Part shown: piece by piece, positions 8,940-64,000 of the stretch
Position numbering within the stretch: the stretch's first letter is position 1
Layout: each line of letters starts with the position of its first letter
DNA from: Daphnia pulex
Lineage: Eukaryota; Arthropoda; Branchiopoda; Diplostraca; Daphniidae
Assembly: GCF_021134715.1 (NCBI RefSeq)
Contig: NC_060027.1
Location: 5,518,001 to 5,582,000 of the forward strand
Length of the DNA: 64,000 nt
Direction: 5' to 3'
Position numbers and translations under genes: made by a program
The notes under the pieces: generated by a model
Told to the model about the DNA's origin: nothing
The model's input: the letters and a program-made list of their open reading frames with translations, nothing else
The model's database searches: none

Positions 8940-8945
8940 TTTATT
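8940..8945 (-). terminator. poly(A) signal of the LDLR-like gene
   Basis: AATAAA on the minus strand, about 55 bases after the stop at 8999. It gives the gene a short 3' UTR. Confidence 0.55.
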
Positions 8946-8998: not shown

Positions 8999-11900
8999 TT
9001 AAGAAGATTGTAGTGCCATAGTTATTTTATCTTCCAAAAAGCTGATTTTTTCCTCTTCTGTTAGCTTATTCCAACTTGCAAGATTAACTACCTGCAGGTG
9101 AAATCCCATTTTCTGGAGAGTCCGCAGTTCCATTTGGTGTACAGTTCTCAAGTTCAAATGATCTTCGGCAGTGTATGCTTGCGGTCGGAAAACTTTCCAC
9201 AACATCCTGAAATACAAATTGAACCGTTTTAATTGAAAAGAACGGACATTAATTGAATAAAGCTTCAAACGAAAATTACAATTGATTGCCAAAAGAAACT
9301 TCGATGTCTTCCACAAAACGTGGTGTGGTGTGGTTTTTGGCGTCCCATACGGAGTTGATAAAAACAGGTTTTTTATCCTGATTAAATACCGTTGCATGAT
9401 CTATAAACGATAAAAGGTTGACAGAAAAAAATGAGTACAAGGTGACTCGGAAAACAATTTCTATAAACTTACCAATATGGTGACCTTTTTTGGTAAATAA
9501 ACGACTTAGGACATGAACAGGTCCATCCAGCACAGCTTGCAGTGCCATTTCAATTGGATATGATGAACCTTCGCCAGAAAGTCCGTCGTTAACGAAAATT
9601 TCATCGCGAATTTCAATTTGGCGCGAGTAAAGTACTTTACTCTCACTTGCACTACGAAACGATGTCCGTTGACCATTTTGTTTGGCTGCGACTTCGATCC
9701 CCCGAGCACTTACATTGGACAGAATCAAGGGGAATTCAAAAAGATATTGCAATCTTCCCCTGGTAAGAATGTCTGTCGAAAAAATATCTTCTGAACTAAT
9801 CGTTTTGTTGGCACTTTTACAGAGGTCCTGATCAGAGAGTTTGTCACAATCTTGATGGTCGCTGCAAACGAGGCTCAACGGAAGGCATTCCGATTCCGGC
9901 TGGCAGTAAAAAGAATGACTCGGACAACGGCTGCTGCATTCGAATGGTGCGATGGAAACCACGTTCGTCTTGGTCGGACAGAAACAAGAGAAACTGGAGC
10001 TGTTCCTCAACACGCACAAGCCGTTGCCGCAAGAAGATGACTTGCACGGGTTTGGGTATTCCGGTTCCAGGATGGAATGACTAGTAAACAAATGATGCAC
10101 ATCCTCAAGCGGCGTTAAAGAGCTGGTCGCAGGTTCGCCCGTCACCGATTGACTGTAAACGACATTTCGGCGCCAGACGGTCCAAGAAATGCGGTTCTCA
10201 AAGAAGGTGAGAGACAGAGGTTGGCCGTTTGTCCTACCAACTACCAGCTTCTTTTTCTGTTGTCCGTCGTAGTCGCAGCTTGAAATTGATTGGCCCTTGT
10301 CCGCCCAGTAGATGCGCGTTTTAACCGTGTCCAGCGCGAGGGCGACAGGATAGGCAGCTCCGCTGTAGTAAATCTCCCGAGTCACTTTGCCATCCATAGT
10401 TGAACGAATGATGCGGCCGCTAGCCGACCGAAGATGCTCGGACCAAAAAAGGGCACCTCTGACGCCATCGATGATGATGTCGGTTATCTTGGCTTGGGAG
10501 TTGACAATGTCAACGTCAGCATCCAGCGTATGAGAGACGACTTTGACCACCGAACGATCTTGATTAGCTACTAGCGCACTGACGTAGACATTTCCTGTGA
10601 TCGAGTCTAGAGCCAATCCAGTGGGAGTCAGTCCTTCCAACTTGTAGGTGAACGCCTGGCCGACATCCCTCATCCGGCTGACACCTGCACTGGTGATCCA
10701 GAAGAGGGTGGAAAATTTGCCGTGATAGGCGATGCCTTTAATGGGAGCATCCTGCGATGCCAGACCACGATGACTAGCAGTCACATTGTTGTTCCGCAGA
10801 AGGGCGACGCGATGCGCACTGGCGGCTATCAGCAACGGCCGTCCGTCCATCACTTTGCAGGTGTATTTATCCGGCTCAAGGTAATACCCTGGCGCACACG
10901 AACAGTCGTAATCGCCTTCGCTATTGGCGCAGTATTGGGAACATCTATTCTCCGATAAGCATTCGTCAATGTCTACGCACTGAGGGCCGTTGTTTTCGGA
11001 TCGGTAGCCGGCCTCGCAGTAGCAAATTGGTCCCTTCGGTCCCGGCACACAATTGTGCTCACAAAAGTTTTCTTCACACGGAGTATCTATAAACGGATTT
11101 AGCAGTCCGTGAATTATTAACAAAGACCATGAATGAGTAGGCACAAGAAATCGGATGGATAATTTGAACATATTACCACAGTTATCTCCTTCGTCAGTGC
11201 CATCTGGACAATCCAAAACTTCATCACAGACCGAATCCATTGGTATGCAATTGCCACTGTCACACCGGAAATCTCCTTCCGAGCAAGAAGAGCCCAACTT
11301 ATAATGACAACTGTAAATAAAAACACAATTAATAAAATCATTCTCAAATTCAAATGAATAAAAAAAAACTTACTCGGACCCGTTCGATGTTATACAATCA
11401 CCAGTGCTGCCGTTGCGACTTAATTTTAAATTATTAACTACAACCATCAATCGATATTGCTCGGCATTCTTAAGGGAAGTAGTACCGATGGAAAATTCGT
11501 GCTTTGTTTCTGGATCTTGTTTGTTCAACCAGTTGATGCGAGAATGTCCAGTCAGCCAGAAAACCGAGTCCAAAGTTAAACTGATGGCAATGGGCGTTTT
11601 CAGGTGTTCTTGGAGTACGGTTCGATTTGAACCTCCAACTTCCATGCGTTCAATCGTACCGCGCAGAGAATCGGTAAAGTACAAGTGCTTGTCGTCGTAC
11701 ACCATAGACGTCACGGTTCCATGGACTTGCACCAAATTATTTAGCCAATTCCCGTCCGTTTCCCATACGGTGATGACGTAACTTTCACTTCCTTCGACAA
11801 CAAACATTAAATTTAATTCAGGTGCTATGGCAATGGCTCTAGGGTTCTTGAGCTGTCGAGCTAAAACCAATCGTTCACGCACTCCGTTTAAATGTTTGCG

Positions 11901-13559
11901 ACCAATCGCAAATTTCACGATGGTACCCCGAGATCTCTCCGTCCAGTAAATGCTTTCCGTGAAAGGATCGACGTCCAACCCTTCGACCACATCGGCATTT
12001 TCGAAGAGAACCACTTCGCGACGAGTGTTCAAATCCATCGAGTAAATGACTCCGTCCACAGTGTCGCTGTAGATGATGGAATTATCCGAAGGGTTGAATA
12101 CCAAGGCGCCAACGTTTTTCAAGTGGAGATTCTTAGACAGATGGACGATTGAATTTGTCTCGTTCTGGTTGTTGTTGTACAAGCGATAAATGTCGGTTTT
12201 AGTAGCGACGATGATGGAAGTATCATCGACAGTAGTGAAATCGCAAGTGCGGTTGTCGCTATTCAACGTCATCGCAGCCGGACAAGCGCAATGAAATCCT
12301 TCCACAGAAGGTGAGAGGAGACAAAGATGGCTGCAACTCGCGTTCTGGCAAGGATTTTGAGTAAATCTTTGCTTCGAAGGATGATGGACTTGAATACTAG
12401 TGAGAATCAATGTGTCATCCCGGATCATCACCTAGAGTAATAAAGACATTTTTACTGTAAAATAATAGCTCAACAAATTGAAAGACCAACTTACTTTAAA
12501 TTGCCCTCCGGTGTTCTTGTCCACGGAAATAATCTCATGTTCGGTTGGGTCGCACCAGAAGACCAGATTGCGGAACAGAGCCAGAGCGAAAGGATTGACT
12601 TCCTTCTGAAGAACCTTGCGGTCGGATCCGTCGATGTGTGAGCTTTCGATGCGATTCAGCTGGACATCGCCCCAGAATATGCGCCCGGTCGCTTCGTCCA
12701 CAGCTAATCCACTAGGCTGGGCCACATCGGTGGTGATTATGTGTGTCCGTTTTGATCCGTCCATGCCAGCCGAGGCAATGTGTGGATGGGAACCCCAGTC
12801 GGACCAGAAGAGCAGACGTTTTTCAGGATAGACGGCCAGAGCGCGAGGTTTGTCCAGTTGACCGCAGACGACAACGCAGATTGTGCCTTGGAGATCGCAG
12901 GCGACAATAGTTTTCCGACCGGAATCGACGAAGTATAGGTGTCTTCCGGGCCCATCAACCATCAAGTCTCCAACCTCTTCTACGCCAACGGAAATGACTT
13001 TTTGATTTCTTGATCCATCCAAACTGGATTTGTAAATTCCCGATTTGCCATCGCTCTTTTCACTCCAGTAAAGAGACTGTTCTTTGTAATCAACCGAGAC
13101 GCCGTGGGCTTGGCTAAGGTCTGACTGAATGAATTTATATTCTTCAGAATCGATCGGCATCGATCGAATATCACTGTCAGTTGTGATCAGCAGAAGAGGT
13201 TCTGAAACAAGAAAACGACAAGAAAATTCCACGTGTTTTACTTACATTCGTCGATATATTTTCATCACGAAAATGTTTACACTACTTAATGAATAATTTT
13301 AAAAATTAGAAAGAAAACTTACTGCATTCGTCTTCGTCAAATCCATCTTCACAATCCTTGACATCGTCGCAGCGCTGTTGGGGTTCGAAACAACCCTCCC
13401 CATTTCCGCATTGAATCTGATTATCCATACATCCTTTAGGCAACACCGAATATCAATTCATTACCAATTTCAAATAAATTACAACAACGATTGCATACCT
13501 CTTGCCGTGAAGCTCGAAAGATGGGCGAACAAAATGAGACAAAAATAGGCAATCTCCAT
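8999..13559 (-). CDS. LDL-receptor-like protein with C-terminal RAP-like domain
   Basis: Eight coding exons: 13559-13499, 13433-13323, 13201-12495, 12431-11374, 11310-11177, 11086-9473, 9400-9280 and 9206-8999. All have GT/AG borders and agree in phase, giving 1337 aa. Order: signal peptide (MEIAYFCLILFAHLSSFTA), LDLR class A (aa 21-58), YWTD propeller (59-293), EGF (318-356), propeller (357-640), LDLR-A (655-690), EGF and calcium-type EGF (691-768, DIDEC), propeller (770-1030), EGF (1036-1060), LDLR-A (1075-1113). This is a lipoprotein-receptor/LRP ectodomain, normally on the cell surface. The last 200 residues are not LRP-like. There is no membrane helix or NPxY tail. Instead a segment resembling FAST_2 (about 1195-1228) precedes a RAP-like end (LQKMGFHLQVVNLASWNKL) typical of mitochondrial FASTKD proteins. 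Two introns (11176-11087, 9472-9401) are multiples of three and read through. Confidence 0.8.
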
Positions 13560-18399: not shown

Positions 18400-20044
18400 T
18401 TTTCCAATATTGTTAGGAAAACGATTCCTGATAAGTCAAAACTATAAACTACTTCACACGTCGAAAAAGAAAACGCGTCATGGAGACGAAAGTGAACTAG
18501 AATAATGGCAGCTGGAAATGCCTGAGCGCCAAAAATTGAAAGCGTTGCCAGATTGTGTTTTCGATTATTTTTTAAAAACCAGCAATAAATGGAGTAAAAA
18601 TGAAATTACCGTAAAAAATTGCAAATTAAAAGAAAACAATGAGAATTTTCATTTGGAGATTTTAAATTTACTGTATTCAATCTGTTTCAATTGAATTGGG
18701 TAGGGCCTGGGTAGGGCAGTTACACTTGGATTTTTCCCACGAAAATGACAACCAAACTAAAGTAAAATTAACAGCAGCAGCCAGTGCTTACCACTCCAAA
18801 ATTTTGCTTTAATTAGCCTCCAACGTTGTAAGTTAGCTGGTGGCCATCAATTATGGCCAAATTTTCTATACCCATAAAAATGTATGTTTATTTAAACAGA
18901 GGGCTCTGACTAAAAATTTTATTCGGTACCCTACGACTAGCTAAAAATAGCTTTATGCACAAAGGCTGGTCGCTACTAGCTACCCTTAGCTAAAACTTAC
19001 TGCTGCGCAAATTAGATTAATTTTATAAGTCGAACAACTAGCTCGAAATAGCTTAACGTACATAGGCTGGTCGTTACTACCTACACATGGTTAAATTACT
19101 GCTGAACGCAAGCAGTCTAGTATCAACAGGTTTAAGCTAGCTGGTAGAAACGAGGCTGCTCCCGTTCAGCTGTAATGTAACTTAAAGAAAGATAGTTATG
19201 ACCAACCTACGTACGTAAAGCTATTTTTTAGCTAGTCGTTCAGAGACCCAGCTAAACAAATCGTACGGGTTTTGATACATTGCACTACTTTTCCACACAA
19301 ATTTAAATTGTGTATTCGTAAGGGATTATTACGTTACACGAGACTGATAAGGGTCGAGTCAAATTCACATATCGGAACCTTCATGTGATAATATGTAGGC
19401 TGTGTCTGCCTTTTGATCTTTGAAAATATTTGTATGTTTGTATCTAGTAGGTTTGTGAAAAAAAGTCATGTGCCTAGCCATCAGGCTGTCACTGATCATC
19501 GTTTGTAATTTTAAGAAAGTACCGCAAACTAGTTTTTGCATAAGATTACGGAATGAAGGAGGCGGAAGAGCGGAATTGCAGAGAAGGAAACTACTACGCA
19601 AAATAATTTGTTTTAGATAAACATGCTGCATTTTATTTTTTTAAAGAGTATTACAAAATAAGAGAAATGGGAATCTAACGATGTGGTAGCTGTAAAGCAA
19701 ACATGTGCGAGCCACTCGGCCAGTTATTCATTAAACATTCACGGCGCCCTGTTCGACTCTTCCCCACTAGCTGTTCAATTGTTTGTCGTCGACCCCACGG
19801 ACGGAGGCGTTTTCCTTTTACCGATCACACGCACCTTGATAATTAATTGTATGACCACAATGTCAGTATACTTGTCAAGAATTTTCAAAGTGCGAAGTAG
19901 TTGAGATGACACGTTATAACATTAACAAACTGTAGAACTCACTGAACTTTCATTTTTGCCGTTATATTACATTTGTGTTCTTCAATCTCTTATATTTATC
20001 TTATTTCAACTATTTTGGAAGTTCTTTTGATTATAATTCAGAAA

Positions 20045-23000
20045 ATGGATCGCGTGATGGGCTCTCGTAATAAGCTGGAAGCTCTCTGTCTTGTGTGTGG
20101 GGATAAAGCATCCGGACGACACTACGGCGTCTCTAGCTGTGATGGATGTCGAGGCTTCTTCAAGAGAAGCATTCGCAGGTGATTTACACAAAATTTCTAA
20201 TAATCCATAACATTAAACATTTTCAAACATAAACTGGGTACAGTGAAATTCCATGAACAAACCAATCAGTCTAAGCAGAGTGAAACCTGGGTGATTCTAG
20301 TGTGAAAACCTGAGTGGTAGTAATGGCTAAGTTTGAAAGGAGAAAGCATTTTTACATTTTTAATTTTTAAATTAATTTTCCAAGTCCTATTTCAAAAGCG
20401 ACCGAAGGAAAGGCTTCCGCGTTCGTTTTATTAAAATTCAATCCCGTTTCTAGATATACATTTAATCCGTGTTGAGAATATTTCAGATGTTCACGATTAA
20501 ATAAACATATTTTTGTTCTTAGAAATTTGGACTACATGTGCAAAGAATCGAACCAGTGCATCGTGGATGTCAGCCGTCGTAATCAATGTCAAGCGTGCCG
20601 GTTTCGTCGCTGCCTAGAAGTCAAAATGAAACGAGACGGTAAAAATGATTTTCTTTCTAATTCACACTTTTCTTAAATGTAATAGTAGATTTCTGCTTTG
20701 CGAGTAACGGTTTATGCAATCGGGCTTATTAATTATAGCCAGTAATGCATTTTAGATCAACTGAAATGAAGAGTTCAGTGAAAATTGGTAAAGAATGGGA
20801 AGAAGGAGGAGGAGCTACGGAAAGTGCACCAATCATGTGAGATTCGCACGTTCGGGAATAATAAACAGTTCTTGGCGTCTAGTAGACTAGGGGCGCGCAG
20901 GAGAACCCTGTCCTGGCGCACCACACCCCATAGATCCCTTCATGTGTGCAAGGCATTTCATTGGCTGTCCCCCCCTGAATCACGTGACTTCCAATTGCGT
21001 CGGTGCTATGCGCTATATAAGTGCTGCTAGTAGAGATTCAGACTTTTCGCTGATTTAAAAATAACCTCAATTAATTGGAAAGACATTGCACAACACGTCA
21101 ATTAGTGCTTGCGCTTGATTCTTAGGTATTCAAATTTATGAAAACCCCATAACGGTAAGAAAATGTCTGCAAATATCATCCCATCGCATTGTTGGAACAA
21201 AAGTCTTTTACTTCATGAAATTCATAGCATGAATTTTTACATTAAAATAAAAATCAGACTAGGCTAAGATATTCCCGCTATATTCTTTAAACCGGGATTA
21301 ACAGCCTACAAAAACGGATGGATTGATATTATTTGATTGTTTGTGTAGCAGTACTAGATCATATAGCAATATTAAAAAAGAGTATTTTCCTAGCACGATC
21401 GTTTCAGCATCCATGCTAAATCAATAACACTTTTTTTTATTGGTGGTCGGCTTTGTGAGCAAATATTAGTGGAGTGAAATATTAAGGGAAGTGCCAAAAC
21501 CACAAGGGGGGGGGGGGGGAATGGGGGAATGGGGTTGATGCTTGTGACAATATTGGAAGTAGGTGACGCCATTAACGGATCCCATGTAAGTGATCCCTTA
21601 AGAGTTAGAAAGGTTTTTCTTTTTTTTGTCAAGAGCTTTGGCGTCACCTGTCAGTTTACACGGATGTGAAGGGGCTCCCGTCACAACCAACTGATATGAA
21701 GACCAAATGCTCATCTAATATAACTTTCCATCTTTGATTCTTTTCGTTCAATAAAAAAAAAACTAGCCGTCCAACACGAACGCGCTCCTCGCGGCGCTCT
21801 CAAAAGATCCTACCAGCCGGAGCTCGACCCGACCGTGCAGACAAACGCGACTCCGCTATTGCCGTTAAGTCATCATCAACCACCTCTAACGTCCCTGAGT
21901 GCCGGCTACTCATTCTACTCGGGGAATTTCCCGTTTAACTGGCGGCCAACCATCGGCTTGCATCACGTCCCAAGGCATTTCCCATTGAACATTTTCGTTC
22001 CTCCTCCACCGCTTCCGGCCTCGGACAATAATCTGACTCCATCCATCCCTCTTCTCAATCTCGTCAAAGAAGATGAAGTGAGCAGTTCGGCGGCCGAAGA
22101 TTTACCAACAACATTCAAAAGACGCGATTCAGGTATAAATGTTGTACGTTTTAGATGCTATATAACTCATAAAATATCATTAAAATTAGCAGGGGTCAGC
22201 TACAAGTCACCGACTGTCACTAGTACATCTCCCGTTGCCATGCCGACCGATCCTGTTAGTCAGTTGAACGCCTCTCATCATTGTTTGTCAGGCATTAGAG
22301 ACACCAGCAACGACGTCAATGAAGCAGCTGCTCGTTTACTCTTCTTAACAGTTCGATGGGCGAAATCTATACCATCTTTTTCTCATGTAAAATTCGGGTT
22401 TATATGAAATAGTATTTTTACGTAATCCGTTTTTAAAATGTCTTATTTATTTTTTTTTTAAATTACCCATTAGCTCTTCTATCGGGACCAAAGTCTCCTT
22501 CTGGAGGAAGCCTGGTGCGAGCTCTTTGTTTTAACCGTAGCCCAATGGGGCCTCAGTCTTGACGAAGGTAACAAGAACGATACAATTCTAAAATCAAAAT
22601 TAATAGTAACAGATTGTTCAAAGTTATAAAGCAATCAAACCGGTTAAATCTTGTAAGATTTTTACGAAAGATGAAACCACAATTATTAACTCATTTCAAC
22701 TATTTAAACGCATTGCTTGCGTGCATTGCATAAAAGCCACAGTTGTTTGTTCGTCTTTTTATGTATTGGCTTTGTCTCAGTTTTTCTTGCTCATTACGCA
22801 TTCATTTTTTGATGACGCATAAAAATGCCGTTATAACGGTATACTGCCAATTTTAGTATTTGACACTCGCATTAATAAGGAATTTGACATGACTCTATTA
22901 CTTGACAGTTAACACTATGAGAAACTGCCCAGAGTTGACGAGCGAACGCCACGAGCTGCTGCTGGAAGGTCTGCGACATTTGCACCAAGTGGTCGCACGC

Positions 23001-54638: not shown

Positions 54639-54710
54639 TCCCATATTGTCTAGTGGTTAGAATACCTGGCTCTCACCGAGGAGTCCCGAGTTCAATTCCC
54701 GGTATGGGAA
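54639..54710 (+). tRNA. tRNA-Glu(CTC) copy 1, degenerate
   Basis: 72 bases, TCCCATATTGTCTAGTGGTT start, anticodon CTC. There is a G-G mismatch in the anticodon stem (CCTGG/CGAGG) and an A-C mismatch in the T stem (CCGAG), so it is probably decaying. Confidence 0.8.
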
Positions 54711-55068
54711 AAGAGGAACTGGACAATTTTGCAAGTTTTGGCCATTTTTGTCAAATATATCTGGCAAACAGTTTCTGCGTTTCCAGAACTATTGCAATCG
54801 GCTTAACTTACATACATACGAGCCAAAATCTTTCTAGTACATTGGATATACTAAGTACATCGGCATGTTTCCATCGAGACTCCTTCAAAAAATAGTTTCT
54901 TTGCAAAAAAATTCGCCAAGGAATAAGAAATGACATCTATGTCAATTATTCATGTGTGAACGAAAAAGAAATGAACAACTATATTTTACCTAAAGAGTAA
55001 AATTTGTGTAAATTGACTTCAATTCCGTAGGTTGACTAGTCTGCTAAGAAATAGCAAGATTGCTAAAC

Positions 55069-55140
55069 TGCGATGGCCGAGAATCCAACTCTGGTCAATT
55101 GCTTGGAAGGCAACTATGCTAACCACTATACCACTATCGC
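55069..55140 (-). tRNA. tRNA-Gly(TCC) copy 1, T-loop altered
   Basis: 72 bases on minus, GCGATAGTGGTATAGTGGTT start, anticodon TCC. The T-loop reads TTGG instead of TTCG and the T stem has a mismatch, so the internal B box is weakened. Confidence 0.8.
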
Positions 55141-55325
55141 TTGACGTAAGTTAGCGTCATGATTTCCGTATTGTCACATCTTTTTAAATTACAGAAAATC
55201 GACCAGTATTACCACTTGGTGACCTTGTATCGTGGTACATTAAGCATTCTCTATCACTATATCAAAGCAACCTCTCTAATTATGTTGCAATGCGATGATC
55301 ATGTATATTCAGATAATTATATGTT

Positions 55326-55444
55326 TGTCAGGAGTGGGATTTGAACCCACGCCTTCATTGAAGACCAGAATACTGCAACTTCTTTTATTGAAGCAAGGAT
55401 TATGTCCTTGAGTCTGGCGCCTTAGACCGCTCGGCCATCCTGAC
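55326..55444 (-). tRNA. tRNA-Leu(CAA), intron-containing, copy 2
   Basis: Same as copy 1 except for single changes at the intron end. The arms and the acceptor stem are intact. Confidence 0.92.
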
Positions 55445-55603
55445 CAAATCAGATATACCTAAATTCTTTTTCCCTACAAATGTGGCATTAAAACTCTTCT
55501 AACTCATTCAAGAGTTCCTTGCCCTAGGCGATTTATACCAGGACAACAATTGTATTACGTTGTATTGCGTTTGAATATGTATTTTTTTTGAATATGTATT
55601 TTT

Positions 55604-55640
55604 TTGAGTCTGGTGCCTTAGACCGCTCGGCCATCCTGAC
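55604..55640 (-). pseudogene. 5' half of tRNA-Leu, unit 2
   Basis: The 5' 37 bases of tRNA-Leu end at the anticodon (GACTCAA) and then run into A-rich DNA. The A box is kept; the B box and 3' half are missing. The same fragment occurs in four units. Confidence 0.85.
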
Positions 55641-55794
55641 CTCATCAGATCTAGCTAAATTCCTTTGCATTACTGATGTGGGATTTAAACTCTTCTAACT
55701 CATTCAAGAGTTCCTTGCCCTAGGCTGTTTATACCAGGACAACAATTGTATTATGTTGTATTGATTTGCAATATGTATTTTTCAAGCGATTTCA

Positions 55795-55866
55795 TCCCAT
55801 ATTGTCTAGTAGTTAGGATACCTGGCTCTCACCCAGGAGGCCCGGATTCAATTCCCGGTATGGGAA
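55795..55866 (+). tRNA. tRNA-Glu(CTC) copy 2, T-stem change
   Basis: Acceptor and anticodon stems are intact. The D-loop reads TAGTAG and the B box is GATTCAATTCC instead of GGTTCAATTCC, breaking one T-stem pair. Confidence 0.82.
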
Positions 55867-56224
55867 TAAAGGAACTGGACAATTTTGCAAGTTTTGGCCA
55901 TTTTTGTCAAATACATCTAGCAAACAGTTCCTGCGTTTCCAGAACTATTGCAATCGGCTTAACTTACATACTTACGAGCCAAAATATTTCTAGTACATTG
56001 GATATACTAAGTACATCGGCATGTTTCCATCGAGACTCCTTCATAAAATGGTTTCTTTGCAAGAAATATCGCCAAGGAATAAGAAATGACATCTATGTCA
56101 ATTATTCATGTGTGAACGAAAAAGAAATGAACAACAATATTTTACCTAAAGAGTAACATTTGTGTAAATTGACTTCAATTGCGTAGGTTGATTAGTCTGC
56201 TAGGAATTAGCCAGATTGCTAAAC

Positions 56225-56296
56225 TGCGATGGCCGAGAATCGAACTCGGGTCAATTGCTTGGAAGGCAACTATGCTAACCACTATACCACCATCGC
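56225..56296 (-). tRNA. tRNA-Gly(TCC) copy 2, intact
   Basis: A perfect cloverleaf by eye: GCGATGG pairs with CCATCGC, the anticodon is TCC, the T arm is CCGAGTTCGATTCTCGG and the discriminator is A. It is the best Gly copy of the array. Confidence 0.94.
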
Positions 56297-56481
56297 TTGA
56301 CGTAAGTTAACGTCATCATTTCCGTATTGTCACATCTTTTTAAATTACAGAAAATCGACCAGTATTACCACTTGGTGACCTTGTATCGTGGTACATTAAG
56401 TATTCTCTATCACTATATCAAAGCAACCTCTCTAATTATGTTGCAATGCGATGATCATGCGTATTCAGATAATTATATTTT

Positions 56482-56600
56482 TGTCAGGAGTGGGATTTGA
56501 ACCCACGCCTTCATTGAAGACCAGAATACTGCAACTTCTTTTATTGAAGCAAGGATTATGTCCTTGAGTCTGGCGCCTTAGACCGCTCGGCCATCCTGAC
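56482..56600 (-). tRNA. tRNA-Leu(CAA), intron-containing, copy 3
   Basis: Intact arms, and the same intron as copy 2. Confidence 0.92.
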
Positions 56601-56776
56601 CACATCAGATACACCTAAATTCTTTTGCTCTACAAATGTGGCATTAAAACTCTTCTAAATCATTCAGGAGTTCCTTGCCCTATTTCAATTTATATATTTC
56701 GGCGATTTATACCAGGACAACAATTGTATTACGTTGTATTGCGTTTGAATATGTATTTGTTTTAATATGTATTTTT

Positions 56777-56813
56777 TTGAGTCTGGTGCCTTAGACCGCT
56801 CGGCCATCCTGAC
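56777..56813 (-). pseudogene. 5' half of tRNA-Leu, unit 3
   Basis: Same 37-base 5' fragment as at 55604-55640. Confidence 0.85.
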
Positions 56814-56967
56814 CTCATCAGATCTAGCTAAATTCCTTTGCATTACAGATGTGGGATTTCAACTCTTCTATCTCATTCAAGAGTTCCTTGCCCTAGGCTG
56901 TTTATACCAGGACAACAATTGTATTATGTTGTATTGATTTGGAATATGTATTTTTCAAGCGATTTCA

Positions 56968-57039
56968 TCCCATATTGTCTAGTGGTTAGGATACCTGGCT
57001 CTCACCCAGGAGGCCCGGGTTCAATTCCCGGTATGGGAA
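56968..57039 (+). tRNA. tRNA-Glu(CTC) copy 3, intact
   Basis: Canonical: TCCCATA pairs with TATGGGA, the anticodon arm is CCTGG/CCAGG around CTC, and the T arm is CCGGGTTCAATTCCCGG. It is the only fully intact Glu copy here. Confidence 0.95.
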
Positions 57040-57397
57040 AAGAGGAACTGGACAATTTTGCAAGTTTTGGCCATTTTTGTCAAATACATCTGGCAAACAG
57101 TTTCTGCGTTTCCAGAACTATTGTAATCGGCTTAACTTACATACATACGAGCCAAAATCTTTCTAGTACATTGGATATACTAAGTACATCGGCATGTTTC
57201 CATCGAGACTCCTTCAAAAAATAGTTTCTTTGCAAAAAAATTCACCAAGGAATAAGAAATGACATCTATGTCAATTATTCATGTGTGAACGAAAAAGAAA
57301 TGAACAACTATATTTTACCTAAAGAGTAAAATTTGTGTAAATTGACTTCAAAACCGTAGGTTGACTAGTCTGCTAAGAAATAGCAAGATTGCTAAAC

Positions 57398-57469
57398 TGC
57401 GATGGCCGAGAATCCAACTCGGGTCAATTGCTTGGAAGGCAAGTATGCTAACCACTATACCACTATCGC
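57398..57469 (-). tRNA. tRNA-Gly(TCC) copy 3, T-loop altered
   Basis: Anticodon TCC. It shares the TTGG T-loop change with copy 1, which points to exchange between units. Confidence 0.8.
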
Positions 57470-57654
57470 TAGACGTAAGTTAGCGTCATAATTTCCGTAT
57501 TGTCACATCTTTTTAAATTACAGAAAATCGACCAGTATTACCACTTGGGGACCTTGTATCGTGGTACATTAAGCATTCTCTATCACTATATCAAAGCAAC
57601 CTCTCTAATTATGTTGCAATGCGATGATCATGTATATTCAGATAATTATATGTT

Positions 57655-57773
57655 TGTCAGGAGTGGGATTTGAACCCACGCCTTCATTGAAGACAAGAAT
57701 ACTGCAACTTCTTTTATTGAAGCAAGGATTATGTCCTTGAGTCTGGCGCCTTAGACCGCTCGGCCATTCTGAC
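57655..57773 (-). tRNA. tRNA-Leu(CAA) copy 4, acceptor mismatch
   Basis: It starts GTCAGAATGG, where the others have GTCAGGATGG. One acceptor pair is lost; the rest is as in copy 2. Confidence 0.85.
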
Positions 57774-57932
57774 CACATCAGATATACCTAAATTCTTTTT
57801 CCCTAAAAATGTGGCATTTAAACTCTTCTAACTCATTCAAGAGTTCCTTGCCCTAGGCGATTTATACCAGGACAACAATTGTATTACGTTGTATTGCGTT
57901 TGAATATGTATTTTTTTTTAATATGTATTTTC

Positions 57933-57969
57933 TTGAGTCTGGTGCCTTAGACCGCTCGGCCATCCTGAC
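57933..57969 (-). pseudogene. 5' half of tRNA-Leu, unit 4
   Basis: Same 37-base fragment, again cut at the anticodon. Confidence 0.85.
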
Positions 57970-58123
57970 CTCATCAGATGTAGCTAAATTCCTTTGCATT
58001 ACAGATGTGGGATTTAAAATCTTCTAACTCATTCAAGAGTTCCTTGCCCTAGGCTGTTTATACCAGGACAACAATTGTATTATGTTGTATTGATATGGGA
58101 TATGTATTTTTCAAGTGATATCA

Positions 58124-58195
58124 TCCCATATTGTCTAGTGGCTAGGATACCTGGCTCTCACTCAGGAGGCCCGGGTTCAATTCCCGGTAGTGGAA
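58124..58195 (+). tRNA. tRNA-Glu(CTC) copy 4, acceptor mismatches
   Basis: The 3' acceptor strand reads TAGTGGA instead of TATGGGA, so two pairs are lost. Copy 5 has the same change. Confidence 0.8.
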
Positions 58196-58554
58196 ATGAG
58201 GGACTGGACAATTTTGCAAGTTTTGGCCATTTTCGTCAAATACATCTGGCAAACAGTTTCTGCGTTTCCAGAAAATTTTGCAATCGGCTTAACTTACATA
58301 CTTACGAGTCAAAATCTTTCTAGTACATTGGATATCCTAAGTAAATCGGCATGTTTCCATCGAGACTCCTCCATAAAATGGTTTCTTTGCAAGAAATATC
58401 GCCAAGGAATAAGAAATGACATCTATGTCAATATTTCATGTTCGAACGAAAAAGAAACGAACAACTATATTTTACCTAAAGAGTAACATTTGTGTAAATT
58501 GACTTCAATTCCGTAGGTTGACTAGTCTGCTAAGAAATAGCAAGATTGCTAAAC

Positions 58555-58626
58555 TGCGATGGTCAAGAGTCGAACACGGGTCAATTGCTTGGAAGGCAAC
58601 TATGCTAACCACTATACTACCATCGC
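58555..58626 (-). tRNA. tRNA-Gly(TCC) copy 4, degenerate T arm
   Basis: Anticodon TCC is kept. The T arm (CCGTGTTCGACTCTTGACC) has several mismatches, so it is probably a pseudogene. Confidence 0.75.
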
Positions 58627-58811
58627 TTGACTTACATTAGCTTCATCATTTCCGTATTGTCACATCTTTTTAAATTACAGAAAATCGACCAGTATTACCA
58701 CTTGGTGACCTTGTATCGTGGTACATTAAGCATTCTCTATCACTATATCAAAGCAACCTCTCTAATTATGTTGCAATGCGATGATCACGTATATTCAGAT
58801 AATTAAATGTT

Positions 58812-58930
58812 TGTCAGCAGTGGGATTTGAACCCACGCCTTCATTGAAGACCAGAATACTGCAACTTCTTTTATTGAAGCAAGGATTATATCCTTGAGTC
58901 TGGCGCCTTAGACCGCTCGGCCATCCTGAC
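58812..58930 (-). tRNA. tRNA-Leu(CAA) copy 5, acceptor mismatch
   Basis: The 3' acceptor strand reads CTGCTGAC where the others have CTCCTGAC, losing one pair. The intron and anticodon are as in the other copies. Confidence 0.85.
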
Positions 58931-59090
58931 CACATCAGATATACCTAAATTCTTTTGCCCTACAAATGTGGCATTAAAACTCTTCTAACTCATTCAAGAG
59001 TTCCTTGCCCTAGGCGATTTATACCAGGACAACAATTGTATTACGTTGTATTGCGTTTGAATATGTATTTTTTTTTGAATATGTATTTTC

Positions 59091-59128
59091 TTCAGTCTGG
59101 TGCCTTAGACCGCTCGGCCATCCTGACC
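59091..59128 (-). pseudogene. 5' half of tRNA-Leu, unit 5
   Basis: Same fragment as in units 2-4, with a changed base at the anticodon (GACTGAA). Confidence 0.8.
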
Positions 59129-59281
59129 TCATCAGATGTAGCTAAATTCCTTTGCATTACAGATGTGGGATTTAAAATCTTCTAACTCATTCAAGAGTTC
59201 CTTGCCCTAGGCTGTTTATACCAGGACAACAATTGTATTATGTTGTATTGATATGGAATATGTATTTTTCAAGCGATTTCA

Positions 59282-59353
59282 TCCCATATTGTCTAGTGGC
59301 TAGGATACCTGGCTCTCACTCAGGAGGCCCGGGTTCAATTCCCGGTAGTGGAA
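59282..59353 (+). tRNA. tRNA-Glu(CTC) copy 5, acceptor mismatches
   Basis: Same TAGTGGA acceptor change as copy 4. The T arm is intact. Confidence 0.8.
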
Positions 59354-59713
59354 ATGAGGAACTGGACAATTTTGCAAGTTTTGGCCATTTTTGTCAAATA
59401 CATCTGGCAAACAGTTTCTGCGTTTCCAGAAAATTTTGCAATCGGCTTAACTTACAAACTTACGAGTCAAAATCTTTCTAGTACATTGCATATCCTAAGT
59501 AAATCGGCATGTTTCCATCGAGACTCCTTCATAAAATGGTTTCTTTGCAAGAAATATCGCCAAGGAATAAGAAATGACATCTATGTCAATAATTCATGTG
59601 TGAACGAAAAAGAAACGAACAACTATATTTTACCTAAAGAGTAACATATGTGTAAATTGACTTCAATTCCGTAGGTTGACTAGTCTGCTAAGAAATAGCA
59701 ATATTAGCTAAAC

Positions 59714-59785
59714 TGTGATGGCCGAGAATAGGACTCGGGTCAATTGCTTGGAAGGCAACTATGCTAACCACTATACCACCATCGC
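59714..59785 (-). tRNA. tRNA-Gly(TCC) copy 5, degenerate T loop
   Basis: Anticodon TCC is kept. The T-loop is TCCTATT instead of TTCGATT and the acceptor has one changed base, so it is probably inactive. Confidence 0.75.
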
Positions 59786-62458: not shown

Positions 62459-63990
62459 TTACAAAAGGACTTCTTTGTAAAGAATATTGACGGTGAATAC
62501 TTTTTCTTTTTCCTCTTCAGTGGCTGTCAGGTGATTTCTCAAAAGCCGTCCTTGCTTTGCAGATTCAGATATTTCGACTTTCACACCTGTGGGTTTTTCC
62601 CCGATAAAAAAAAAACAAAAATGTAAAACATACTATTAAGTAAAAGAAGTAAACAAAAATCTATAATAATTGTTTCTGAACCTTCTTTCGATGTTGCACG
62701 TGAAAAAGCCACATACAGATGACCGTGAGAAAAGACAGGCTCATGGAGGAAAATGCCGACACGATCAAAAGTCTGGCCCTGTGACTTGGTGATGGTTATG
62801 GCAAATGCCAACAGCACAGGAAATTGGAGTCTCTTGAGGATGACAGGAAGATCGGAATCGGTGGGCGACAGCGTCATTCGCGGGATGTAAACCGTGTGAC
62901 CCTTGTTATTGCCGGCAGCTATATCTGCAACGATCAGATTTTCTCTGAGTGCTCTGATGATGGCTCCCACTTTCAACTTGAGCACATGAGTGGGAATTCC
63001 GGACACGTTAAAGGTGTTGAGAATCTTGGTTGGATAATTGGCAATTTCTTCGGGATCGTCCGAGTCAATCTTATCGATGCTTTTGTACTGATGCACTATT
63101 CCAGGCATGTCTTTGATGATCTGATTGTTGATCCGTAAGCAATCAACGTTCTTTGGACAGAGAATGGCTCGACTGCAAATCTGCTGAGAGACCTCGGGAT
63201 CCAAAAGCAGAGCAGCAACACCAAAAACATGCTCAATCAAATTCCGTCCAAGGTCAAGAAACTCGGCAGGAATTTCGATGAGATCGGGATTGTTAAGTCT
63301 TATAATCGTTGGCAGAGTACCGTTTACAAGCTGAATAAGCCAGTCAGCGTAGTCTTGATTGCCGGCCACGGTACGCATATTCTGGGTTAGACGAAGATGA
63401 CGAAACAGAGGCCACGTTGCGTTATTTCGGATTGTAGCTTCCACCACCTTCCCCCTGTTTCCATGTCGGACGACTGGTAAACATTGACGAAAGTCACCAC
63501 CAAGAAGAAGGACTATTCCACCATGAGGTAAATTTTTCTTTTCCAATTTTTGAAAGAGGAAATTAAAAGCGTCGAGAGCGTGATTTGTCTTCATGGTGGC
63601 TTCGCCGGAAATGATGAGATTGGCACTTGAAATCAAATTAGCGAGAGGGCTGCCATCTACAATTTTCGATCTGGTAACTTCGGTAATTGGAGGGTAGATC
63701 TTAAATTGGGAATGGTACGTTGTGCCGTCAATCAACAACGTAGAAGCGATGCCGGTAGAAGCGACGGCGATGACTGTCTTCCCTTGGCCTTGCAGAACGG
63801 TGATCACAGTGTTGTACAAAAAGGTCTTGCCAGTACCTCCAGGCCCATCCAAAAAATACTGATGGGGAACTGAGTTGTTGTTGTCGTTGACGGCAGCCAT
63901 GATTTGATCATAGGCGGCTCGTTGACCTTCGTTCAATTGAGTAACCATCAGTTCACCCAATCGTCTCTTTTCTATCCTGGTAATTGCAGT
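62459..63990 (-). mobile_element. Helitron PIF1-type helicase, 3' part
   Basis: Two exons are visible: about 63985-62682, and 62586-62459 (stop TAA), joined over a 95-base intron in matching phase. The protein is the helicase end of a Helitron Rep/helicase. Walker A GPGGTGKT, motif III GGDFRQCLPVV, the LTQNMR arginine motif, TITKSQGQTFDRVGI and the GHLYVAFSRAT motif VI are all present. The spliced C-terminus (KEGVKVEISES ... VNILYKEVLL) is the usual Helitron ending, whereas the unspliced frame ends in an unrelated hydrophobic tail. Walker B reads IISGEA instead of the usual IIWDEA, so the metal-binding Asp is Gly. The Rep nuclease part should lie beyond the right edge. An acceptor-like TTACCAG near 63980 follows an in-frame stop, so another intron is likely there. 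Confidence 0.85.
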
Positions 63991-64000
63991 ATTCTCTTAA

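Follow-up and report, generated by a model that had tools for sequence, protein, structure and literature searches.

A chimeric LDLR-family gene with a FASTKD-type RAP end in Daphnia pulex

Structure of the chimeric gene

The window analysed here is a stretch of 64,000 nucleotides at positions 5518001-5582000 of contig C11 in the Daphnia pulex genome (133 Mb on 13 contigs). Its minus strand carries a chimeric gene (13559-8999), and all features of this gene given below are on that strand. The gene model has eight exons, seven introns that are all GT-AG and a single open frame of 1337 amino acids. Exon 1 (13499-13559) encodes the signal peptide MEIAYFCLILFAHLSSFTAR, with a hydropathy of 1.49 at residue 1, and exon 2 (13323-13433) the first LDLR class A (LDLR-A) module at residues 22-57, recognised by Pfam and by a motif scan. 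The first YWTD propeller lies in exon 3 (12495-13201) and an EGF module with the second propeller in exon 4 (11374-12431), both with Pfam matches; exon 5 (11177-11310) encodes the second LDLR-A module (Pfam and motif scan). Exon 6 (9473-11086) contains the junction: it runs through EGF modules, the third propeller, another EGF module, the third LDLR-A module (residues 1078-1113, 9819-9926, by motif scan) and an 88-residue linker (9555-9818) into the start of a FASTKD-derived block. This block continues through exon 7 (9280-9400), assigned from the gene model and sequence comparison, to exon 8 (8999-9206), which encodes the RAP domain (9199-9026) and the stop. An AATAAA at 8940-8945, 53 nt 3' of the stop, is a consensus match only. 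The order of propellers and EGF modules is our reading of the sequence alongside the Pfam matches of the protein (PF00057, 48.4 bits; PF00058, 115.4 bits; PF14670, 56.1 bits). The N-terminus reads as a hydrophobic signal peptide with Cys-rich secretory modules behind it, and the LDLR-A, EGF and YWTD modules of the LDLR family are all present.

A preliminary description of this DNA had proposed that a secretory LDLR-family ectodomain is joined to a FASTKD RAP end. The gene model agrees that the last LDLR-A module, which ends at residue 1113 (9819), continues in frame within exon 11086-9473 into the tail. PF08373, searched on residues 1115-1337 as that description had asked, detected RAP in this 223-residue tail at 32.9 bits (E 6.4e-8), above the curated Pfam cut-off of 24.2 bits; the last exon alone scored 36.4 bits and the whole protein 29.9 bits. 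The FAST_2 end suggested ahead of RAP stands in part: its second half aligns at 9363-9551, split by the intron at 9472-9401 (PF08368, profile positions 50-88 of 89), but at 14.4 bits it stays under the cut-off of 26.9 bits, and a Pfam search of the whole protein did not list FAST_2. The sequence GHHIDHATVFNQDKKPV has to be corrected, as the form in which it was quoted crosses the intron at 9472-9401, and a further intron (9279-9207) lies ahead of the last exon. Together with two introns in common with a FASTKD-type gene and a second intact copy, both described below, the Pfam matches bear out the proposed joining, and the fusion is confirmed as a gene structure. The abbreviation RAP is shared with the 'receptor-associated protein' LRPAP1, which is unrelated to the RNA-type RAP domain; this identification was rejected, since the Pfam match is to the RNA-type domain.

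FAST_1 gave no match in the protein by Pfam, nor at this locus among the eight matches of a genome search. Without FAST_1 and a full FAST_2, the gene is not a member of the FASTKD family. It is not a membrane receptor of the LDLR family either, as it lacks the anchor and the internalisation end: a hydropathy scan of the protein found no membrane helix besides the signal peptide, in agreement with the earlier reading of the tail. From the last LDLR-A module to the C-terminus, cysteine is absent, and N-glycosylation sequons occur at residues 1117, 1148 and 1251, the first two within the linker. Tail and linker contain 26 K/R and 27 D/E residues and are thus not basic.

Elsewhere in the window, the start of a nuclear receptor zinc finger is found on the plus strand at 19946-20182 (zf-C4, 55.1 bits, profile positions 2-32 of 70), in a gene directed away from the fusion gene. 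A tandem array at 54639-59785 has five units, each about 1.16 kb long and with a tRNA-Glu(CTC) and a tRNA-Gly(TCC) on opposite strands. A 196-bp repeat inside this array matches a spot near 4.078 Mb of the same contig and presumably resembles the complement of a tRNA-Leu. A 471-codon frame with the motif GGTGKT on the minus strand (62581-63996) is one that we take to be PIF1/Helitron-type helicase-like.

Copies and relatives in the genome

Seven candidates emerged from a six-frame search of the genome for RAP and yielded seven matches, five of them above the cut-off including the window gene; the two below it were a relative of the window tail on contig C9 and a FASTKD-type gene on C8. The identical search in control genomes gave a sub-cut-off signal in 2 of 14. 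Searched with the window tail, the genome returned the tail itself, two sites on C9 and, weakly (E 0.0019), a FASTKD-type gene at 4.078 Mb of C11. One of the C9 sites is a second intact fusion (7977151-7972073, minus strand) with 12 exons, GT-AG introns and 1403 amino acids. It encodes, in order, a signal peptide, five LDLR-A modules, EGF modules, two propellers, six LDLR-A modules and the same tail. Pfam scored the whole protein at 256.3 bits for LDLR-A, and at 19.2 and 16.1 bits for FAST_2 and RAP, both below their cut-offs; its RAP exon alone reached 22.6 bits against 24.2. From the last LDLR-A module onwards the C9 copy has one cysteine, in the linker, and AATAAA is absent within 300 nt past its stop. 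The other C9 site, near 3.185 Mb, is a broken tail copy that begins just ahead of the last LDLR-A module, has a stop right behind that module and ends abruptly in the RAP exon after FRPQAYS; over 790 bp it shares 89% identity with the intact C9 copy. The terminal LDLR-A module follows the third propeller in the window gene (9926-9819) and directly follows the second LDLR-A cluster in the C9 copy.

The tail shares its intron positions with a FASTKD-type gene. In the gene at C11:4.078 Mb (minus strand) a phase 1 intron follows GQFV and a phase 2 intron follows GCQ. Equivalent introns occur at the same places and in the same phases in the window gene (after GHHI, 9401-9472, and after GNQ, 9207-9279) and in the C9 copy (after GHNI and GNR). 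The FASTKD-type genes on C3 (11.66 Mb) and C8 likewise have a phase 2 intron at roughly the second place, and the FASTKD-type gene at 12.83 Mb of C3 has a phase 1 intron in the region, for which a positional match to the fusion intron is not established. Since related introns occur in other FASTKD-type genes, the introns indicate descent from FASTKD genomic DNA and not from this one gene in particular. An origin of the tail as a retrocopy was ruled out, as both FASTKD introns are present. 'Exon capture', as the event had been called, is inexact, because the junction is intra-exonic and the end arrived as genomic DNA with its last two introns.

In an unrooted tree of seven tails, all from genes of the D. 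pulex genome, the two fusion tails were sisters (support 97.9/94) and grouped with the C11 FASTKD-type gene against the four other FASTKD genes (96.4/97). With two splice junctions corrected or cut, these values were 99.6/99 and 91/93. Among the five FASTKD-type genes of the genome, the one at C11:4.078 Mb is the closest apparent relative of the fusion tails (91/93 to 96.4/97). Aligned to this gene, the window tail scored 171, against 26 for shuffles, and none of 500 shuffles reached this score; when the two fusion tails were compared as a profile with the four other FASTKD genes, the match was weak (probability 20, E 0.0011). The similarity begins at about residue 1202 (9554), and the linker upstream of it resembles neither the C11 FASTKD-type gene nor the linker of the C9 copy. 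The FDSGDY of the C11 gene is FRPQAY in both fusions and is also missing from the four other FASTKD genes.

A search with the propellers found an ordinary receptor on the plus strand of C11 (4061300-4067637). Its 1853 amino acids include a membrane helix at residue 1707, with a cytoplasmic end after it, and from its domain order we take it to be of the vitellogenin receptor (VgR) type. By one motif, which misses some modules, it has 11 LDLR-A modules against three in the window gene; none lies between its third propeller and the membrane helix. Further receptor copies are dispersed in the genome. Four copies of a propeller fragment next to a coding fragment that we take to be leucine-rich-repeat-like lie at C3:7144112, C8:5344629, C10:7148249 and C9:2509355. 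They are 98.2-99.5% identical to each other over 3.66 kb in all six pairs; over 2.08 kb the propeller fragment shares 89.5-90.2% identity with the ordinary receptor. The four are a recent dispersed chimeric duplication. Another copy at C9:8223714-8225102 has six stops in the matched stretch; its identity is 81% with the ordinary receptor and 83% with the C9 fusion.

Selection, age and origin of the fusion

The window and C9 tails are 61% identical over 133 codons. Their dN/dS is 0.24-0.29 (NG86: dN 0.31, dS 1.30; LWL85: dN 0.29, dS 1.00); a tail dS of at least 1 is poorly measured, YN00 yielded no estimate, and NG86 returned no dS when the tails were compared with the FASTKD gene. The window and C9 tails differ at 43 first, 27 second and 62 third codon positions. 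In a neutral simulation with substitutions only, equal rates and the window tail as ancestor, none of 4000 runs at K 1.0 and 1 of 4000 at K 1.3 left both copies open, and the highest protein identity was 29%, compared with 61% for the real tails. The linker serves as an inner control: between window and C9 it scores 24 against 23.1 for shuffles, of which 192 of 500 reach this score, whereas the tails score 404 against 28.9 (0 of 500). Since the tails are similar while the adjoining linkers are unlike, the FASTKD-derived block was kept by selection, and it is under purifying selection between the two copies.

The preliminary description had offered two outcomes, a secreted soluble receptor and a dead-end chimera. 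The first fits, as a predicted product. The second would be a decaying duplicate with an open frame but no function, and the receptor is indeed prone to duplication, as the four near-identical fragments, the six-stop copy and the broken C9 tail show; a pairwise dN/dS is also compatible with recent loss of function in one copy. It is disfavoured by the purifying selection on the tail, with its low dN/dS, the codon-position bias, the simulation and the unconserved linker, and all modelled splice sites are intact in both copies. We therefore consider a dead end unlikely.

The age of the join can be approached through the receptor part. Exon 3 of the window gene is 62-63% identical to the C9 copy and to the ordinary receptor; compared with the latter, identity is 59% over the first two propellers and 53% over the third propeller and EGF modules. 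Over the first two propellers, dN and dS are 0.29 and 1.67 against the ordinary receptor and 0.30 and 1.41 against the C9 copy. The dS of tail and propellers is comparable, so the tails would have split at about the time when the window gene and the ordinary receptor diverged. This suggests that the join of receptor and FASTKD end is old and maintained by selection. Our best reading is that the gene is probably an old, selected chimera of the LDLR/yolk-receptor family, predicted to be secreted in soluble form and capped by RAP.

The C9 copy has a more complex history. Its propellers are 94% identical to the ordinary receptor (dS 0.21) and its middle 4 kb 88% identical, but its flanks are not. 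In 250-bp windows including introns, identity is 85-96% in 14 of 16, and 71% and 79% in the two end windows. Outside the tract, the 5' flank and the 3' side score no better than shuffles (30 of 60 and 29 of 60 reach), and exon 1, with 69% identity, still scores above shuffles (0 of 100 reach). The middle of the C9 copy has the look of a gene-conversion-like tract over an old fusion, and it may later have been overwritten by the ordinary receptor. The alternative, that two receptor copies captured a tail independently, would account for first propellers that are 94% identical to the ordinary receptor in a gene whose tail is only 61% identical to the window tail. However, the fusion tails are sisters in both versions of the tree, and the terminal LDLR-A module of the C9 copy has its best match in that of the window gene (82; next 68). 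In the reverse direction, the window module matches a different C9 module best (84), ahead of the C9 terminal one (82). As the old-young-old profile of the C9 copy fits conversion, a double capture seems quite improbable.

For the origin of the chimera, the arrangement of the parent kinds is informative. The ordinary receptor and the C11 FASTKD-type gene are convergent, with 10,756 bp from stop to stop; by our own arithmetic, the chance that one of five FASTKD genes lies this close is about 0.001. With convergent parents, a single inversion with its ends inside both genes yields a receptor 5' part joined to a FASTKD 3' part. The fusion may thus have arisen from a copy of the region at C11:4.06-4.08 Mb, with inversion breakpoints in the 3' part of the receptor and in the FAST_2 exon of the FASTKD gene. 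We infer the inversion from this geometry, and it has left no visible scar. Other genes of C11:4067100-4078900 left no trace by tblastx in the window or in two C9 regions of 20 kb and 18 kb with fusion sequence: the 43 rows were all in the window, 42 of them in one tRNA-array-like zone of 300 bp and one being the RAP exon. The model does not account for where the last LDLR-A module and the linker came from.

It could also be that the locus makes two adjacent transcripts, an early-ending receptor and a separate RAP protein, the link between the halves being one of gene structure. This is very unlikely, as a single open exon contains the junction in both copies, neither Pfam nor the genome search showed FAST_1 or an N-terminal FASTKD part between the halves, and the halves have the same order in two copies. 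Least probable of all is an additional membrane form made by splicing to a distant membrane exon: isoforms are frequent in LDLR-family genes, but the membrane and cytoplasmic end of the ordinary receptor gave no significant match in the window (best E 5.6) or in the 20 kb and 18 kb C9 regions (best E 1.4).

Predicted product and comparison with known systems

Since the chimera combines a signal peptide with disulphide-rich modules and lacks an anchor, its secretion is to be expected. The product would enter the secretory pathway and be released as a soluble receptor, which could bind part of the ligands of the family (yolk or lipoprotein particles) without internalising them. This binding may be weak, given the three LDLR-A modules that were kept. 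The FAST_2/RAP block might fold into a cap at the C-terminus, with a possible role in assembly or for a partner. With half of FAST_2 missing and tail and linker not basic, RNA binding in the old manner seems doubtful. A more tentative reading, which we consider less likely than not, is that RAP, described in organellar and other intracellular RNA proteins, was recruited to the secretory pathway and is a selected domain there. The soluble yolk-type receptors would then form a small family in which RAP has found a new partner, such as nucleic acid that is extracellular or carried by yolk, or serves self-assembly.

If expressed, the gene would bring a RAP domain into the secretory pathway, as part of a type of receptor that changes from importer to soluble binder once the anchor is lost. 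New-gene birth is also unusually clear in this case: both parent kinds persist as convergent neighbours and the junction within an exon, the retained donor introns and a second copy for a test of selection can still be traced. The conversion-like tract points to later exchange with the parent gene.

In the open-licence literature we found no paper on a combination of an LDLR-family or vitellogenin receptor with RAP, on FASTKD in Daphnia, or on duplication of the vitellogenin receptor in Daphnia. A survey of RAP proteins describes organellar and RNA-related roles and states that, besides FAST_1 and FAST_2, no domain is highly enriched, with a few others such as Mpp10, Aquarius_N and DEXDc found at most twice (PMC8190603). 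For FASTKD4, a structural study reports that the FAST and RAP domains build a positively charged, Vsr-like cavity, and that mutation of the putative catalytic Asp left MT-ND3 stability unaltered (PMC11879112). A sequence search of the PDB gave best E values of 0.082 for the FASTKD tail and 0.98 for the window tail, both to unrelated proteins; as the tails have no relative there, the published FASTKD4 structure is unusable for placing tail residues. The first propeller with EGF had its best PDB matches in LRP2, LRP4 and LRP6.

The window gene resembles LDLR-type receptors of the vitellogenin receptor/yolkless kind in its signal peptide, LDLR-A modules, EGF modules and three YWTD propellers, but a FAST_2/RAP block replaces the membrane helix and cytoplasmic end. 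With the FASTKD family (FAST_1-FAST_2-RAP, active in mitochondrial RNA metabolism) it shares RAP, the second half of FAST_2 and two introns in place and phase, whereas it lacks FAST_1 and the N-terminal FASTKD part and has a signal peptide. Soluble receptors can arise through loss of the membrane anchor, and the window gene is like these in having an ectodomain and a signal peptide but no anchor. Unlike them, it does not have a short new end: its anchor was swapped for a foreign block, and this block is conserved between the two copies.
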